Source of the DNA: Niebla homalea
Lineage: Eukaryota; Ascomycota; Lecanoromycetes; Lecanorales; Ramalinaceae
Direction: 5' to 3'
Assembly (NCBI GenBank): GCA_019925105.1
Contig: JAHGAU010000026.1
Coordinates: 124,001 to 188,000, forward strand
DNA length: 64,000 nt
Part shown: piece by piece, positions 36,654 through 48,803 of the stretch
Layout of the letters: every line of letters begins with the position of its first letter
Numbering within the stretch: position 1 is the stretch's first letter
Notes under the pieces: generated by a model
The model's input: the letters and a program-made list of their open reading frames with translations, nothing else
Told to the model about the DNA's origin: nothing
Database searches by the model: none
Program-made: the position numbers and the translations under genes

Positions 36654-37353
36654 TCACGTCACATCCACCCTCCCCACCCCACCACCATCAGTACCCTTCC
36701 CTGCTGGCCCCAGCCTCACCGGCTCCGGAATCTGCGATGGATCCCAGATCCCCGTCACCCACACCGTCAACTCGTTCTCTCTGCCCATCCGAGTTATGCC
36801 GCCGACATATTGTATATGTGATTGCGGCATCTACGGGGGGTTGGAAGCCCGAATACCAGTCAGCTATGTATTCGTTTCGTCTGCCCAAAAATGTGCTCAA
36901 AAATGCAAAGATGTGTGTGTATGCATATTCCATGTTATGTATGTAGATGCAAATAGAGCGCGCGCGCGACAGAAAGCGAGAGAGAAAGAGAAAAAGCGGG
37001 AGAGATCAACGCACCAACAAACACCCCCCCACCACCTCCCCCACCACCTCCGCCACCTCCTCGAAGCTCGCCCGATCCTCATCGATCACATCGATCCAGA
37101 GCTGGCACGTGCCTTCGCGTCGCAGGTACCGCGCCGAGCGGATGAAGGCCTGCGCTTGCGACGCCGACGGCAGCGCGCGGAGGGTGCTTGCGAGGAGGCG
37201 ACAGTCGGCGGGCCGCGGGGGGGGGATGTGCTCGGTGGGGATGGATGCGTCGGCGATGCAGAGGGGAGGAGAGCGGGAGGGGGGTGCGGCGCTGGTGAGG
37301 AGGGGGAGGAGGGGGGAGATGAGGAGGGTGAGGAGGGTGGTGAGGGGAGGCAT
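36654..37353 (-). CDS. Small secreted four-cysteine protein, paralogue A
   Basis: Exons are 37353-37015 and 36830-36654 with a 184-nt intron (donor GTGCGT, branch GCTGACT, acceptor GTAG), giving 171 residues. A signal peptide is evident (MPPLTTLLTLLISPLLPLLTSA). The mature part has C32, C51 (ADCRLLASTLR), C83 (REGTCQLWIDV) and C111 (FEEVAEVVGEVVGGC). Exon 2 encodes TVWVTGIWDPSQ and ends GRVDVT. The same arrangement occurs in the next two genes, with 32 residues from C2 to C3 in each. The protein is likely exported and disulphide-stabilised. I do not recognise the family; the DC and GTC motifs loosely recall Hce2-type secreted effectors, but this is not established. Exon 2 has no ATG-initiated frame of its own and was located by its similarity to the paralogues. 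Confidence 0.72.
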
Positions 37354-38534
37354 GCGGTGGGCCGAGGGGGGGGTTAGGGGGGCCGAGATGGGTGTTTGAT
37401 CGGGAGGATGTTTTGGGAAACGGGGGTGGGATGCTGCAGCTGGATAGAGCAATTTTCTGGTTTTCTTGTCAGATGCTGAGGGGGCGAGGAGAGCAAGTGA
37501 AGAGCAGTGATCAGGAAAGAGGGTTTTCCTTCGCGACAAGAAGGGCAGCTTTGGGGTTGTCTCATTCTTCTCTACTGGGAGCAGCAGACATCTGAGTCAA
37601 AATGGTAGCCGCTTTTACGCTTTGGGGGCTACAAACCAGTGGTGTCACATAGCAAAGTGGCTGTCGCTCTTTATTCATCGTGAGCTCCTTTGTGATTACT
37701 GTCTCACTTTATGTGAAGTGGATCACACCACATGAATACATTGCCGCTTTGGAGAGCGCTGGATGCAGGGGTAAAACTTTGGTGCCGCATATCTGAGTTC
37801 TTACGAAGTATGATACTTATTAGCATGATGGGGAATGTTACTTGTTTTGCCATCCATGAGATTTCAAGGCTTGTTTGCTCTTCACTCAGTGCACAATGCG
37901 CTCAGTATCGGGTGTTATAACAGCGACCTTAAGCATGATCATATACCCGTTATGAAGATGGTCTTTGCTGCTGTACGGATGACAGGCTTTTACATGAGGC
38001 TTATGTGCTTCATGATGAATGGTAGACTCCTCGTCGATGTTGACACACGGTTTGCAAATGGTGCGGTGACGATTCATGAAGAGAGCGACTTTACAGAGCG
38101 TACATGACAGAGGGAATCTCCATCTACGTCGCTTGGCGAATCGAAGACACTTGACAATGGGAATGTGGGTTATTGGAGCCTGAAAGGCAGACCAGAATGA
38201 CAATCCAGGTGATGTTGATTGATCTTTGCTGTTATATTTAATATCATTTCTGAACAAGAGGTAATCCCGGATCGGTTGGAGTCTGTCGAGCTTTCACGAT
38301 CAATCGGTAACAGAGAAGCAGCAACAATTCGCACAGCTCCATCGCTACGCCGAAGAAGATCAATATGGCGAGTGTCGAGGATCAATATAATCCACGAAAT
38401 CCGTCTTGGTGTGGAGGAGATTACACCGCCGACCATCTGTCACCTCCATCCTGCCCTTCGTCACACGTGGAAAAGCTTTTGCGAAGCGGCATTGCTCCAG
38501 CAGACCAGCCTTTCCATCCCTTTCCTACTTCCCT
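37354..38534. other. Intergenic region between secreted paralogues A and B
   Basis: It should contain the promoter of paralogue A and the 3' UTR of paralogue B. No coding frame with recognisable features was found, and there is no repeat shared with the neighbouring spacer that I could see. Confidence 0.45.
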
Positions 38535-39216
38535 CTACGTCACATCCACCCTCCCAACCTCAGCATCAGTGCCATTGAGCTGCGACTGGTCATCAAAATT
38601 ACCAAAAGGGGACCAGATCCCCGTGACGCCCAGGTCCATGAGTTTCATCGCGCCAATCTGAATGCTACCGCCCTTATAGTTCGGTTTATTGATCTAGGAA
38701 CCACGCAAGTCAGCAAGCAAATTCCTCTCTGCCCCGTCACCTCTTCACGAATATACAACACCTTGTTGCAAAAGGTAGGGGAAACAATTAAAAAAAAAAG
38801 AAACGTACACATGTCGCCACCACACGATCGATACCATCCGCCAGATCATTGAAGCTTACGTAGTCCCCCGAGGGCCGGATCATGGGGTGAGTAAAGACGT
38901 AGACCTGGCACGTGCCGCGCCTTCGCAGAAATTGTTCTTGTCTGGTGATGAGACGTTCGTGCGAGGCCGAAGGGTCACTGCGGAGGATGTTGGCTAGCGC
39001 CGTGCAGTCGGCTGCAACGGGTTTGGTGTATGACTTCCCAATTGCCGAGCTTCCGTCTTCACAACGGGGTTGGGCGGCTCCAACTGGTTGGTTGATGGAG
39101 AGGGGGGAGCTATCGGTGGTGGAGATGGGGGTGGCACTGGTGGTGGAGATGATGAAGAGGATGAAGGAGATAACGGTGAGGAATGGAGTGAGGAAGGGGC
39201 GGTGGGGGGTGGCCAT
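38535..39216 (-). CDS. Small secreted four-cysteine protein, paralogue B
   Basis: Exons are 39216-38809 and 38693-38535, with a 115-nt intron (donor GTACGT, branch GCTGACT), giving 188 residues. The start at 39216 gives a signal peptide (PFLTVISFILFIISTTSATP); the frame is open further upstream but without secretory features. The cysteines are C52, C71 (AADCTALANILR), C103 (RRGTCQVYVF) and C136 (IDRVVATC). Exon 2 reads KGGSIQIGAMKLMDLGVTGIW and ends EVGRVDVT followed by TAG. The intron sits directly after the fourth cysteine, as in paralogue A apart from two residues. The arrangement supports a shared origin by tandem duplication. Function is unknown; a secreted role at the cell surface or in host or competitor interaction is inference. 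Confidence 0.75.
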
Positions 39217-40510
39217 TGTAAGGCAATTGCTTGTCAAGAGGCCTGAATCAATGAGATTGTTGGGATGGTGCTCGGTGTAAGAACAATGGCCGAATTCTGG
39301 TAGGTGCTCAATAGTAAGTAGTGGAGGTGGAAAGGGGTGCGGGTGCTTTTGCGAGGGCTGATACGTTTTCCAAAAACGAGGTTGCCTGATAGATTTCCTC
39401 TTTTCAAGAAAATGAAGAGCTTTGGGTGGAATAAGTACTCTTGTCTTTGACATTGGGTCAATGTCCCTACCAGCCAGAGATACTCTAGCTATCAGGTTCG
39501 GAGAGCCGCATACGCGCTCGGGGGCTATAAAAAATTCCGAAATGTTGGCGATACGTAAATTTCTTGGGAGACCGGCTCAAAGCGTTCATTGGGGTGACCC
39601 TTTGACTAATCAAACACCTGGCTCATGACTTGGGTTGACTGTCGACCTGTTGGAAGCTTTGCGGACGGTCTCAGACAACAATTCAAAGGGTGCCGAAAAG
39701 CTGATTTATACTGTTGTACCATTACCACAATGGGCGGTTATTAAATCCTTGACTCAGCTTGCTCAAAGGTTGAGTATCCACGCGTCAATCCCGAATCGCC
39801 CCTTCAGGGCATCATCAGAGAGTTCAAACCTCCGGTACTTCACACAATTGATCCGTACGACGGGTACCTTGAAAGATCTCGACGATGAAGCATGGAATCT
39901 CAAACCTACCGACAACAAAGAATATCATGACTATGGACTGGCAATCTCTGGGAACCAGTGATTGAGGACTGACGTTATTTTCCGCAGCACGGATTGCAAT
40001 CCAAGCAGTAATGGTCGACGATCCGACATCAACTTCTTACTTCGTGCCACTCGGGTAATTCGATAATCCTGCATGCGCGCATCACATGCATCAATGCGCC
40101 AGTCGCTTGGGTAGGTCCGCTAAACCTTGGCTGACCTATTAATAGGATGCAGAGTAATCACTTTTCCAATCAAATGTTTGCAGAAAAACCCTCTCTTGGT
40201 GACTCTCTTCACGACCTCCAATTTCTCCTCGTCGAGTCCAGCTTCCAAACCACCACCAAAGCTTGTCTGATAATCGCCGCTAGGCAGGGAAAAGCTGACA
40301 TGCAAAAGTCCCCCCTCTCGGCCCCTACACTTGTTCCGTAGTTGTGCGGTGGTGATGGAACAGTTGTCCTACCCTCAACCACGCAGTCCAGTATTCGGCT
40401 TGGCAGTCCAGTATTCGGTCCAGCAATGCAAATCGCTTCCCTCCCTTTCCAGACCTCTTCACACATACTACCTCCCCCTCTTTCCCTCCCCCCCCCCTCA
40501 ACAATAACAA
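39217..40510. other. Intergenic region between secreted paralogues B and C
   Basis: A plus-strand frame at 39,635-39,961 (108 codons, no ATG at its start) has a protein-like composition toward its end but no recognisable domain and no signal peptide. A direct repeat, CAGTCCAGTATTCGG, occurs twice near 40,387 and 40,405. A C-rich and T-rich tract lies at 40,470-40,560, at the 3' end of paralogue C. Confidence 0.4.
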
Positions 40511-41406
40511 CTAAACCCTCCCCTTCCTCCTCGTCACATCCACCCTCCCCGCCGTCCGATTCCCCCCTCCCCCACTCAACACCAAAGCACCACCCCGCCC
40601 TTCCTCTTCTCCTTCCTCCGGCAAATCCCACAACCCCGTCACCCAAACCCTCAACAAATTATTATTCCCGATCTGCTCCCGCCCGCCGATGTACCCCTCC
40701 GCTTCGCCGGCGCCGGTCAAGCACCGCACCACCACATCGCCCACCACATCGGCGAACTGCTCGTAGCTCGCGAAGTCGTAGCCCGGCCGCCCGTCGATGT
40801 CGACGTCGAGTTGGCAGGTGCCGCTGACCTTCTTGAAGCCTGGCGGTTGCGTGATGCGTTGCGGGATGTGCACGACAGGGGACTGGAAGGGAGTGGGGGG
40901 GGTAGTCAGCGGTTGCGTTTTGTGGGCCAAAAAAATTGGACGGGTGTCTAGGTAAGGAAGGGGATAGCGGAAATCTGGTATTAGGGGGTTTTGTGGGGCT
41001 TGAAAGGGTGAAGGCTGAGGCGCCGTGCGCTCGTTGTGTGTCCTCATTTTTCTTTTAGGATGGATCGATGTACAATAATTTTGAGGATTGGAAGGGGGGA
41101 GGGGGTAGATATTGTGAGATTGATGACACGGTTGGGTGAGCGAGGGAAACGGAGGAGGCAATATTCCATCCAACTCACATCGCGGATCGATTCTGCGAGA
41201 GCGGTACAATCTTCCGCCTTGGGTGCATCCACGTGGTAGGGGATATCGCCGCGGCGGAGACAGATCGCTTCGGCCCTGTCGTTGGCGGAGGACGAGAGGG
41301 GAAAAGAAGGAATGGCGGTCGCGAAGGAGCTACAGAGGATGAGGAGCAGTGACGACGGCAGGAACCGGAGCCGCAGATAATAATAATAAGTTCCCGTCAT
41401 GGCCAT
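40511..41406 (-). CDS. Small secreted four-cysteine protein, paralogue C
   Basis: Exons are 41406-41179 and 40882-40511, with a 296-nt intron (donor GTGAGT, branch GCTGACT, acceptor CCAG), giving 199 residues. The signal peptide follows a run of tyrosines (LRLRFLPSSLLLILCSSFATA). Cysteines are C49, C67 (AEDCTALAESIRD), C99 (SGTCQLDVDID) and C130 (FADVVGDVVVRC). The C-terminal part reads RVWVTGLWDLPEEG and GRVDVTRRKGRV. Spacing from C2 to C3 is 32, as in A and B. The intron lies between C2 and C3, whereas A and B have theirs after C4. The tail extends seven residues beyond the GRVDVT end of the others. An ATG two codons into the protein (41400) is an alternative start. Confidence 0.72.
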
Positions 41407-42295: not shown

Positions 42296-45200
42296 CTAAT
42301 TCCGATCTTGCCACGAACAGCTCGCCATGGGCGTGATCCGATTCGTATAGCCACTCCCACAGTGCGTAGCCTGATCCGCACCTATCTGCACACACAGCAG
42401 ATTCTTGGGTCCCGGGTCATCACAACTCAAGGTCCCCGGCCCTTCACCAAGTCCCTGGTCATCATGACCAGAGGGATCCCACTCGCAGTCCCGATCACCT
42501 TTATCCGTCTTCACGGTGAAATGGAAAGGTCCAGTCGGCCAGAAGATCGTTGCCGTGTCGATGCCGGAGGGCACCTCTTGAGACTGGATCCACGATTTCG
42601 AGGCGCAGTAGTCCGGAGGAGAGGCGTCGTTCTCGGTCGACCAGACTTTCCAGTAATCGTTGGTTTGAGGGTAGCCACCGCCACCGGTGTAGATTTGGTA
42701 GGCGAGGTAGACGGCGTACGACGCTCCTGTGGGAAGGGCCGCTTGGGAGGAAGCTGACACGACGCTGGCGGCGGACGCGGCGGATGCTTTGCTAACGGAC
42801 TCCACGGACGCCGCGGAGGCCGAGGAGGCGGCTATGCTCGAGCTGAAGCTCGTCACGACGGGGCAATTGTTGGCGGTCGGTTGGAGGGTGTAGCCGCAGC
42901 TGATCATACTGCCGACGGTGTTGAGGTTGGGAACGTACACCTCGTTGCAGTTGCAGTAGCCGTGCTCGGCGTACGGACAATTGCTGTCGGCGCCAACGAC
43001 ACCGCGGCAGCCGCTGAGACCGCCTTCGCCGGGGATGTTGGTTGGGGCCGCGGAGACGCTGACGGGGTGAATGGTCTTTGAAGGATCAATGGTTGAGTAT
43101 GTGCACATGGCCGAGGAGCTGTCTTGGCCTGTGATGCCAGCAGAGACGGGGAGAGCAGGGAGCGAGGCGCTGGCGCCACAATCACACCACGATGTGGGGG
43201 AGTACCATGGTGCGCCATCGGCCATACACCAGAGGGTATTGGATGGCGCCAGTGTTGTAGACGCAAGATTTGTACCGGTCCCAGTGCCGCTTCCGCCACT
43301 TCCAGTCGTCCGTGCTGGAGTTGAGGTAGGACCAGAAGCTGAGTTTGACAAAGGGCCTGAAGCCTTGGTAGTAATACCAGATGTGGTGGCGGGCGAGGAA
43401 GTGATCGAAGGCCTATTAGACTGAGTCCCGGAGTTGGAGCCGCTATTGCTTGTACCACCGGCTCCAGAAGATGCACTTGATGCTCCAGATGTCGCTGAAG
43501 ACCTGCCGCTGGGAGTGTATGCACAAGCAGCACCAGCAGCGCCGGAGGCATCTGCTCTCTCGATCAGATCCCGCGCTTTTAACGTTCCAGTAGACCATGA
43601 GAGACCGAAATCAATGGTGAACTTGCTCTCTGAATACCCACTGTAGGCTTTGATCTGGTCCAGAGCTTTGAGTTGCGCCGCAATGGCATTATCGTTGTCA
43701 TTGGACGGTTGAGTTGGGTCCGTGAGCTGATGTTCCAGGAGCGGCACCGTATCTGAGACCCAAGTCCAGGCATCTCCCGCGATAGCAGTGAGGAACTGCT
43801 CTAGCCAGGTCTTGTAGCTAGACGCCCAATCAGCTGCGATAGGACCTGAGCCGTCATCTTTCATGTAGCCGGCAGCGGTAATTTCTGAATCAATAGTCTG
43901 CCAGGCTTTATAGATACGATCGTTCGTAATGTCGAACATTTTCTTGAATTCAGTATCCTCCATCACCTCGAAGAGCATGATGAAGTCTTGAATGGTCTGG
44001 ACTTGCAATTGATTGCCCCTGTTGATTCGGCGTTCGAAAAAGGACGAAGGGGGATTGACAGTTCGATCAAACATCTAAGATCGAATTAGCAGAAACACCA
44101 TGAAAGCAGTCATTGCAGCATCATACATAGCCCTTGGCACCATTGACATCTTGCTCCAGTCCAGCGAAGCCGAAATTGATGTTCTTGGGGTTACCCGGTT
44201 GGTTCGAGAATTGCATTCCAGGCAATTGATCAAAGAGGAGTTGAATCTTGTTAGCAGTCACACCATTTGCACCACACGGGAAGAAGACTGTCTCCATGTC
44301 TTTGCAGTTGAAGCCACCCTTATTGATCCTGGTTTGCAGGAAAACATTTATGAGTTGCTTTTCATCTGGTGACACGAGATTAGTAGGGCGAGACGAAGAC
44401 GATCAAGATGCTATGTGACTTACAAACATGGTCGACACTTTGTCTGCTCCCTGTAGGAATATCGTCTGGACCCCCAGTGGGTGTCTTGAACATCTTGAAG
44501 CCATTTGGTAAAGTGCAGTTGTGTTGACCAACATACCATTTTGGCACAGCGTCGTAGACTGTGCCTGATTGCCCTGAGTTGCCACCACGCTGTCGACCGA
44601 GGTTGCGAAAACCTGCAAGAGCTGAGTACCCCGGCTGTACGCCCTGCATACCGCCAGGGAAGGTACAGCCATTGACGCTATTGATTGGCGGACCCTGGAC
44701 ACGTTTTGCCAACTCATGTCGACCGTCAGGGTTATCATTAACACTGCTTTGCCCACGGGTGATTTCGCGTGGGCGACTTCTCATGGCAAGCATGCGCTTG
44801 CTAGAACCATCAGTTCCCGGGTCGGGCGTACCCTCCCATTCTGTGATATCATCTCCAGGATCCACGTATGAGGGGCAGCCTGAGACGGCAGACGAGGTCG
44901 TAGAAGAAGAGGTTTGCGAAGACGATGTCTTTGTACCGGAACTTTGAGAAGAGGTACCGGATGTCTTTTCGGCGGAAGAGGTCTTGGACTGATCCTCAGA
45001 CTGCGAAGATTGATCTTTGTCATGCTCTTCCTCCTCAGCTGCCTTTTCAAGGGCGTCGAGCTGTGTCGAGATGCTACTGATGACGTCTGGAGGAGGCGGC
45101 GGGCCGGTGAGAGGTCCGATCTCCGTCGAAATATCGTTGACGATGTCGTCTACACAACCTGCGAGACCTAAGGCATCTTTGGCCAGCCCTTCAACTGCAC

Positions 45201-46854
45201 TGATAGGGTTAAACAGCCTCTTCCGGAATCTCTTTGAACCACCACCCCCCGAGCATGGATGGGTGGAAGGAGGGAAATCACCACCGAGATTCTTAATTAT
45301 GTTTTCGGTGTTGTCCTTGAGATTGTTGATTTCGTCGATTGCTTGAGTCTTGATCTCTGGCTTCGTAATGTCGCTCACCCAGTTACGTCCACCTTTGACG
45401 AAACCAACTAGGATCCCACCAAATACGGAGTTCTGGGAAGATGCTGCAGATCCACCGGTTGGAATCGGCGTTAGGGGAATCCCCCCTGGTGCGGTCGTGT
45501 TTGGGACATCGAAGAACGTGGTCGATGCATCGCCAGATCCTTGAGTACCAGAGGGCCTACTGGATCCAGATGTAGCCGAAGGCCCAGTGGCTGAGCCCGT
45601 GGATCCCGGAGCAGGAGTGCTCTGTCCACCGGATGTCGTGGTACCACTGTTCGAGTTCGAACTGCCTGATTGACCCGTTCCCACGGGCGCTCTGTTCGAG
45701 CTGGTACCTGTGGGTGGAACTCGCGCTGTCTGAGAGCCGCTTGATCCTGTTGTGACGCAACACGGCAAGTTGTTTGAGCTTGCACTTGTGGAATGACCCA
45801 GTCCACTTTGAGAGCCCGATTCGCTGTTCGAGCTAATAGAGCTTGGCTCGGTGCCACATGGCACACAGTTTGCATTGGTGCTTGTTGAAGAGGATGGACC
45901 AGTCTGGGAGCCCCCAGGTGATATAGTGTTTGAAGTACCTGGGGGAGGAACAGACCCTGTGCGAGTGCCAGATCCGCCATCTGTGTTGATGGAGCTAGGC
46001 CCAGTACCTGATGGCCTAGTGTTTGTACCTGTTTGAGTGCCCTGCCCAGTCTGAGTGCCCTGTCCAGTCTGAGTGCCCTGCCCAGTCTGAGTGCTCTGTC
46101 CAGTCTGAGTGCCACGCCCAGATTGAGTGCCAGAGTCGCTGTTGGAGTTAGTATTGGCAGAGCTTGGCCCAGTCACAGTCGATCCGCTATTGAACGAAGT
46201 GCCAGTCTGAGTGCCCTGCCCGGTCTGAGTGCCACGCCCAGATTGAGTGCCAGAGCCGCTGTTGGAGTCGGTATGGGCGGAGCTTGACCCAGTACCAGCC
46301 GATCCGCTATTGGTCGAAGTACCAGCCTGAGTGCCTGACTCACTGTTCAAACTGGTATTGGCAGAGCTTGGTCCAGTAGCAGCTGATCCAGTGTTCGTAG
46401 CAGTGCCTGTCAGACGTGAGGGTCCGGTCAGAGAGCCTGTAACGCCATCCGATAGTCCAGAGCCGGTCGAGGCCCCAGAGGTGCCGCTCACGTCTGAGCG
46501 AGTCGTACGTGGCGTTTGGGAAGGGAGGACAGGACCAGTGATGGCTTCGGAACCATTGATGAAGACATCGTTGGATTTATCGACCGAAAGGGTTGCATAA
46601 TCTATCACTACTGGTGGACCGGTGGGTGCGATAGTGGTGCTATCAATGACGATGTTTGTGGGGTTGACGGCGAACGAGCTGCCATCGATTACGATGGTCT
46701 CGACCGTGACCGGAGGCTTCACCAATTGTCTTTTTGCAGGAGCTTGAGGTGCTCGTTGCGCGACGGGTTTGTTAGCAGCACTCTGGCCAGTCTGCAGGAG
46801 TAATATGAAGCACACAAGGGAAGCCGATGTCGGCAAAGATCGGAACAAATGCAT
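42296..46854 (-). CDS. Very large secreted mucin-like protein with chitinase-tail-like segment
   Basis: Three exons (46854-44424, 44365-44127 and 44074-42296) with 58- and 52-nt introns join in frame to 1,482 residues. Both introns have TACTAAT/GCTAAT branch sites. The N-terminus is a signal peptide (LVCFILLLQTGQSA), followed by a likely Kex2 site at AKR. A short beta-repeat module follows (VETIVIDGSSFAVNPTN). Residues about 110-470 are Ser/Thr/Gly-rich with GTQTGQ tandem repeats, so heavy O-glycosylation is likely. Around the junctions the protein reads QSVDHVYEKQLIN, FNCKDMETVFFPCG, LLFDQLPGMQF and GLEQDVNGAKGYMF. From memory these resemble the non-catalytic tail of large fungal GH18 chitinases; no GH18 catalytic motif (DGxDxDWE) is present. 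A Cys-rich C-terminal half with a second Ser/Thr/Ala linker ends MASCSWQDRN, with no GPI tail. It is likely cell-wall or extracellular; its function is unknown. Confidence 0.8.
46016..46330 (-). repeat. In-frame tandem repeats encoding GTQTGQ in the mucin-like gene
   Basis: An 18-bp unit encoding GTQTGQ (with STQTGQ and GTQSGR variants) is repeated, with at least five successive units near 46,030-46,125. A longer repeat of about 40 residues (SGS...GPSSANTNSNS...GTQSGR) occurs at least twice around it. Such arrays change copy number easily and would alter protein length between strains. Confidence 0.85.
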
Positions 46855-48803
46855 TCCAAAAAGAGAGCGTCAAAATCTAAGGATATCGAAATAGAAAGCG
46901 CAGATGGGGTTAAATGTACAAAGCAATAATGGAGATAGGTCAAGAGTGGTAGAAGCAGAGGTAAAGACAGTATATAAAGACTGTTATTCCAGGGATTGAG
47001 GCTCAGTAAAGAGGTCCATTCTGAGAGAAAATTGAGATAGGATGAGGTCTCCCAACGAGCAACTACGTAGACAAGGTGGAAGATAGTACCCAACATCGGG
47101 AATTTCATATTCCCTGCGTAGCTAACCAACAAAGGGGTTACTACAGAGATTGCTAGTGGAGCACAGGGCTGAATGAGGGAGTAAAAGCCAACAGCCTTGT
47201 TGTCCAACCACTGAATGTGCGTATCCATCAAAGGCATGGTCAATGCGGGAGTGAGGCAGTGGACTGTTTCCGATCTCAAAGGCATCAAATTGTTGCTTCC
47301 AAACTTACACCCAGTCTTGAAGAACCCAACAACAAATGCGGTAGAAAGAGGTTGCGATTGGAGGCTGAAGCAGAGAAGCCAGAGTTTGGGAGATGAGGAT
47401 GTACACCGCTAGGCGACTAAGGCGAGACTGACGATGGCCTATGCTTGTGCCATCACGACAAGACTTGAACCATCGATACCATGGGCCGTGGATCGGCGAA
47501 GCTTAGTACGTGCGGCCTTACGCAAGAAAGAGGCACAGCGACAGACGAGGGCGGTAGCAGTGTGGCTGTCCATTGGTGTAATTGTGCGCCAGTCTCCAAA
47601 GGGCCGATTCAATGGTCAGTCTAATAATTGATGCAACGTACCTCGGCCGTCAATAGATCTGTATGCTATTGTATTATCTTCTATGAGTTTGCATGCCGTG
47701 TAGGCAGCATATGGATCTGCAGTATGATAAGAGTCAGGAGTCCACTAGCCTGTACAAAGTCTTTAGAGTTCAGACTCTCTACACAAGCTTTTTCAGCCGA
47801 CTTGAAAGTCTACCGAAGCATCAGACTAGTGGAGATTACGGGACGCCTGATGACGATGGATATGTCGTTTACTCGTTTCAGATTGCAAGGCTTGTCAAGA
47901 TAAACACAGCCCCTTTGTCGCAGGGTTGGTCAGTTCAATTGGCTGGAAGCTGAATTTAAGATGAGAGGTGATGAGAGGTAGTGATGAAGCGGTAAGCCTT
48001 ACGGTTTTTAATGTCTGGTACACGAAACACGCTTGACATCTCAAACATCCTGGAGGCACGGTAGGTCGGTCTTACTCGGTGGAATTTGTGAGAAGGATCA
48101 TCCACCAACAATTATACTTCAAAGTCAAGTAGGGCCAACAAGTTGGCAACTCCTTGGTTGCGCCCTGCCTTAGATTGTGTAGCATTATTAGCAAGTTGAA
48201 CGAAGCAGGTGGCAGGTGGGGGGCGGTTTCGGGTCGCTACGCCCGCTAAATCCCACGTTTTGTGAAATACCACCTAACCAGTGCTGACGGCGAATCTTTG
48301 CTTCATGAATCATCAGCCTCAGTCAGCCCTTGAGAGAGAAAAGTCAAGCCTCGTAAGCTGCAACATCTGTGCCTCCGGCTTGCAGCAAGTGTTACGAAAA
48401 GCCATGATAAGATTTTGTTGCACTCTGTATTCGATAGTCCTCCTCAGAGTATCAGTCGGCGATCATGGCCTGACAAGGGGAGCACCAACACTTTACGAGG
48501 TGCGCAGTCGCTGAGTCGCTGCTGTTCCTTGTGTAAGTCTATTACTTTCTTAGTACCATGGGCCATCATCCCATCTCTTAAGAAACACCACATCGAGCCA
48601 AGTGCAATTCCTTTAGAACTTCAACTAGCTTTGTTGCGTCTCATCTGAGCCAGGAGGGACTAGTTAGTCTTGCGATACTCATATACCTGATACCCATCTT
48701 CGTCAAAATCACTCCCTGTCAAGAGCTTCTCGAAAAGGCCCAACTTTGCCATACCACTCTAGATTTGATACACCTCATCTGCAAAGCCACTTCATCCATC
48801 ACC
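46855..48803. other. Intergenic region without a supported gene
   Basis: It should include the promoter of the mucin-like gene on the left and that of the CxxC protein on the right. Several short frames are present, mostly starting at GTG or TTG, none with a recognisable domain. I see no repeats. Confidence 0.45.

Follow-up and report, generated by a model that had tools for sequence, protein, structure and literature searches.

Three tandem genes for apparently secreted four-cysteine proteins in Niebla homalea: a very probable divergent branch of the KP4-fold/Hce2 superfamily

Niebla homalea, which we take from its class, Lecanoromycetes, to be a lichen-forming fungus, carries three minus-strand genes in tandem (A, B, and C) in a 64,000-nucleotide stretch of its genome (contig JAHGAU010000026.1, below C26, positions 124,001 to 188,000; hereafter the window). 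Each encodes a small, apparently secreted protein with four conserved cysteines. Judging from the predicted fold of D, a paralogue encoded elsewhere in the same genome, A–C very probably belong to the KP4-fold/Hce2 superfamily, the fold being carried over to them by homology. Their branch is uncatalogued in Pfam, since no family reaches its cut-off. The original prediction, made from the letters of the window, had suspected an undescribed family, and this was right as far as Pfam is concerned, but the proteins resolve to a known superfamily; what is new is a divergent branch of it, not a new fold.

Homology and Gene Structure of A, B, and C

The tandem arrangement, the coordinates (Table 1), the four-cysteine frame, and the common motifs DC..LA, GTCQ, VVxxC, VTG(I/L)W, and GRVDVT can all be read in the sequence as originally described. 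The BLOSUM62 local scores were 155 for A and B, 222 for A and C, and 186 for B and C, and none of these was reached by any of 500 cysteine-kept shuffles (z 24–36). In whole-genome searches A, B, and C were each recovered from the others, with best E values per query–target pair between 5.0e-11 and 3.5e-5. The homology of the three genes holds. The gaps between their common C-terminal stretches are 1.88 and 1.99 kb. A very recent duplication was rejected because A and C are only 32 and 38% identical to B, and pseudogenes or chance frames were rejected because exon 2 of A and exon 1 of B are conserved at the protein level in relatives.

The cysteine spacing is C49-x17-C67-x31-C99-x30-C130 in A, C52-x18-C71-x31-C103-x32-C136 in B, and C32-x18-C51-x31-C83-x27-C111 in C. 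The 31 residues between the second and third cysteines are read within exon 1 of B, of C, and of all eight exon-1 relatives from other genomes (P0002–P0009), while D and five of its relatives have 41; in A this spacing depends on the choice of splice sites, and it is not independent evidence because it spans the intron and 17 single introns keep A open. The intron of A was picked among these 17 (counted within the limits of the scan), that of B is likewise one of 17 frame-keeping single introns, and that of C was picked by eye. The motif GRVDVT forms the C-terminus of B and C as claimed, but RRKGRV comes after it in A. In all eight exon-1 relatives the fourth cysteine is followed by V-C, where the similarity to B stops, as expected where translation enters a GTNTGY donor. 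The joining of exon 1 to exon 2 is supported indirectly by this reading and by D, which carries both halves in a single uninterrupted frame.

Judged by hydropathy alone, the N-termini of all three proteins are apparently those of secreted proteins: the maximum over 15 residues is 1.95 in A, 2.55 in B, and 1.92 in C, and later stretches reach up to 1.26, 1.08, and 1.77, respectively.

Table 1. Positions of the genes, predicted introns, and related loci. Unprefixed positions are those of the window.
Feature	Location	Strand	Remarks
Gene A (199 aa)	41406-40511; exons 41406-41179 + 40882-40511	minus	Four cysteines, hydrophobic N-terminus
Gene B (188 aa)	39216-38535; exons 39216-38809 + 38693-38535	minus	Four cysteines, hydrophobic N-terminus
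Gene C (171 aa)	37353-36654; exons 37353-37015 + 36830-36654	minus	Four cysteines, hydrophobic N-terminus
Predicted intron of A (296 nt)	40883-41178	minus	GTGAGT...TTCCAG; between Cys2 and Cys3
Predicted intron of B (115 nt)	38694-38808	minus	GTACGT...TCCTAG; directly after Cys4 codon
Predicted intron of C (184 nt)	36831-37014	minus	GTGCGT...CCGTAG; two codons after Cys4
Paralogue D	C31:284123-284785	minus	Both halves in one uninterrupted frame, four cysteines
Canonical KP4 locus	C13:507372-507821		PF09044 cut-off
Canonical KP4 locus	C17:72640-73086		PF09044 cut-off
Canonical KP4 locus	C5:1806293-1806745		PF09044 cut-off
Canonical KP4 locus	C43:206910-207113		PF09044 cut-off
Canonical KP4 locus	C29:576021-576233		PF09044 cut-off

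Fold and Superfamily Assignment

The predicted fold of D is that of the Hce2-domain protein Zt-KP4 (PDB 8acx), and it is also similar to those of the Y3 and LDL-type lectins. The structure 8ACX is from de Guillen et al. 2025, and a fold relative reportedly inhibits fungi. At the level of sequence, residues 52–135 of B align to positions 2–88 of the 103-position Hce2 profile (PF14856) with 13.7 bits and an E value of 0.077, below the Pfam cut-off of 25 bits; the best score among the relatives is 16.9 bits, again below this cut-off. No Hce2 match was found for A or C, nor for any of five further paralogue frames, while 8 of the 19 members of the alignment A3 match Hce2 at E ≤ 10. None of A, B, C, and D matches PF09044 (Kp4), and in each of the 12 pairings of these four with three canonical KP4 proteins of the genome, the score was equalled or exceeded by no fewer than 21 of 300 shuffles. 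Sequence searches of the PDB with B, D, and P0002 singly returned only unrelated proteins, at E values of 0.5 or worse.

The absence of any family at its Pfam cut-off and of any relevant PDB match would suit a separate, undescribed family that came to resemble KP4/Hce2 by convergence on a common alpha/beta arrangement. We regard this as very unlikely, however, because the fold match and the weak sequence match give the same superfamily and the shuffle control is clean. A disulfide-stabilized fold, as the original prediction envisaged, is plausible, the disulfides themselves being putative.

Dispersed Paralogues in the Genome

The genome (50.6 Mb) was searched with the proteins A, B, C, and D and with those of the paralogues on C14 and C1. 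At least eight further loci with the same layout were found, on C31 (D), C41, C13 (two copies), C5, C42, C14, and C1, the last weakly linked, so that the supposed family of three is a related trio inside a larger family. Because only the best candidates are scored in these searches, its size is a lower bound; the paralogue frames were read without introns, and their ends may be wrong.

Links between loci were assessed with 400 cysteine-kept shuffles each. The z values were 36 for D with A, 18 for C41 with D, 15 for C13 with D, 14 for C14 with A, and 34 and 24 for C5 and C42 with C14. B was not linked to C14, C5, C42, or C1 (z 2.1 or less). C1 has the weakest links: its z is 8.2 with C42, 5.8 with C14, and 4.6 with A, a score that at least one shuffle reached, and it does not exceed 1.4 with any of B, C, D, C41, C13, and C5. 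Judging from these comparisons, we are certain that A–D are relatives of one another, while C41, C13, C14, C5, and C42 are likely members of the family and C1 is a possible one. A match at C26:444762 (E 0.43) was taken for chance, as there is a stop in the stretch and the frames shown lack the family layout.

When ten sequences of this genome are aligned with two relatives of D (12 in all), all four cysteines and two glycines are conserved throughout. Extra cysteines occur at some of the loci, and at the place of GG in the other sequences C13 reads GA. The two copies on C13 (L030, C13:1422276-1422704, minus strand; L032, C13:1372159-1372500, plus strand) lie ~50 kb apart on opposite strands; their common part looks identical in translation, but upstream of it the two diverge, as though the start region were missing from one of them.

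The motif [DN][VL][TA] is present within the last 15 residues of 7 of the 10 sequences of this genome, against an expectation of 1.5–6.7% per sequence in shuffles of their own last 60 residues; the motif had been noticed in these same ten sequences before it was tested on them, and the agreement is partly simple homology.

Relatives in Other Genomes and Rate of Change

Relatives of A–C were sought by scoring the 7996 candidates with the most shared words. P0001 is a relative of exon 2 of A (74% identity over 115 aligned residues), and P0002–P0004 are relatives of exon 1 of B (68–71% over 93 aligned residues); there was no clear orthologue of C among the nine relatives (P0001–P0009). Five copies of V[DN]VT stand in the tail of P0001, against a single GRVDVT in A, hinting at an expansion of the tail motif. 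The pairs P0004 with P0007 and P0003 with P0008, whose members agree in the length of their longest contig (84859 and 5252, respectively), suggest neighboring copies in other genomes too.

D is 58–64% identical to its six relatives, one of which is a protein of Ramalina farinacea (Lecanorales); the five that cover the stretch between the second and third cysteines (P0011–P0015) share the long spacing of D. For comparison, a VPS9-domain protein of the window shows 60–69% identity to named matches from Lecanorales. Among the 120 matches listed of 1551, 19 carry an organism name, and all 19 are lichen-forming Lecanoromycetes; the highest identities among them are those of Psora testacea (Lecanorales; 69%) and Mycoblastus sanguinarius (67%), and two further proteins of the list reach 87%. 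That the identity of D is near that of the VPS9-domain protein is only a hint against rapid evolution, as the species are unmatched between the two comparisons. The rapid change originally attributed to the family was not borne out.

Surroundings of the Cluster

An AT-rich block (14–27% GC) occupies 12.0–27.0 kb of the window and, judged by eye, resembles a retrotransposon degraded through repeat-induced point mutation. The statement that the three genes lie near a transposon-rich block is a loose one: 9.6 kb separate this block from the cluster, and the frames in this interval include a GTPase-domain gene and a Tim44-domain gene. A transposon origin of A, B, and C was rejected because they contain no such domain and because of this distance. 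On the other side, adjoining gene A, positions 42296-46869 of the minus strand hold a long Ser/Thr/Gly-rich frame, or two of them, in which repeats follow each other at 18-base intervals. This neighbor matched no Pfam family at E ≤ 0.01, and the idea of a chitinase was dropped for this reason.

Proposed Function

We propose that A, B, and C would each consist of a signal peptide and a compact alpha/beta sandwich with four conserved cysteines and two putative disulfides, followed by a low-complexity tail that differs in length and in many cases has [DN][VL][TA] near its end. The three would be tandem duplicates belonging to a family with about eleven loci scattered over the genome. Secreted into the surroundings of the hyphae, they would antagonize or modulate neighboring cells in a killer-type manner, as their fold relatives do; the targets would be competing fungi or yeasts and perhaps the algal partner. 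Taken as a whole, this proposal seems to us evenly balanced between right and wrong; the killer-type role, argued by analogy, is tentative if quite conceivable. Extracellular antagonism or modulation is favored because fold relatives reportedly inhibit fungi, block calcium channels, or bind sugars, and also because of the Hce2 nonself response in Podospora, the redundant virulence role in Valsa mali, and the Cladonia coculture ratio. The effector or competitor-interaction role originally suggested would be compatible with these fold relatives.

KP4 blocks calcium channels (PMC13211469), and Y3 and LDL, which are fold relatives, reportedly bind sugars. The same fold might bind sugars on algal or fungal walls in A–C, serving partner recognition or adhesion and not killing, which we consider somewhat unlikely. 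In Podospora, 5 of 8 Hce2 genes were up on nonself (PMC3689799), and tandem Hce2 genes add redundantly to the virulence of Valsa mali (PMC6637899).

For a 'KP4 killer toxin-like' gene of Cladonia grayi the coculture/monoculture ratio is 150 (PMC6652019, Table 3), and 'Calcium channel inhibitor' appears among selected coculture examples. Together with the calcium channel block by KP4 and a genome of a lichen-forming class, this would fit symbiosis effectors that act on photobiont physiology (e.g., calcium signaling) with little direct toxicity, but the Cladonia gene need not belong to the A–C branch, and we think such a role unlikely.

If the killer-fold reading is true, the cluster and the eight further loci would be candidates for antagonizing or accommodating neighbors, and Hce2/KP4-type effectors would reach below current profile thresholds into lichens. 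A bolder and doubtful extension is that lichen-forming fungi keep, beside canonical KP4 genes, many cryptic secreted proteins of the KP4 fold that are private to them, invisible to current profile libraries, and used to police or tune the thallus community (alga, yeasts, and rival fungi), with the recurrent C-terminal [DN][VL][TA] tail, which follows a flexible linker, as a new functional element.

Comparison with Known Systems

In the one collection searched, judged by title and start of abstract, there was no study of lichen Hce2 proteins; the excerpt of PMC9232553 mentions neither Hce2 nor killer, and that of PMC9493481 deals with Ecp20/Ecp32, not Ecp2.

The KP4 killer toxins (PF09044; PDB 1kpt) show no similarity to A–D at the sequence level beyond shuffles, as described above. 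Five loci of this genome exceed the PF09044 cut-off apart from the A–C family (L020–L024; Table 1), and the three canonical KP4 proteins compared have eight or ten cysteines, in contrast to the four conserved in A–D. The mushroom lectins Y3 (5v6i) and the alpha-galactosyl lectin of L. decastes (4nds) were absent from the PDB sequence matches.

The Hce2/Ecp2-type effectors (PF14856) differ from A–C in that the latter score below the Pfam cut-off where they match at all and come from a lichen-forming class, not from a plant pathogen; the tail motif of the A–C branch was counted within this genome. They are alike in being small and apparently secreted, with the Zt-KP4 fold predicted for D, and Hce2 genes also occur as tandem copies in Valsa mali, where VmHEP1 and VmHEP2 are 604 bp apart (PMC6637899).
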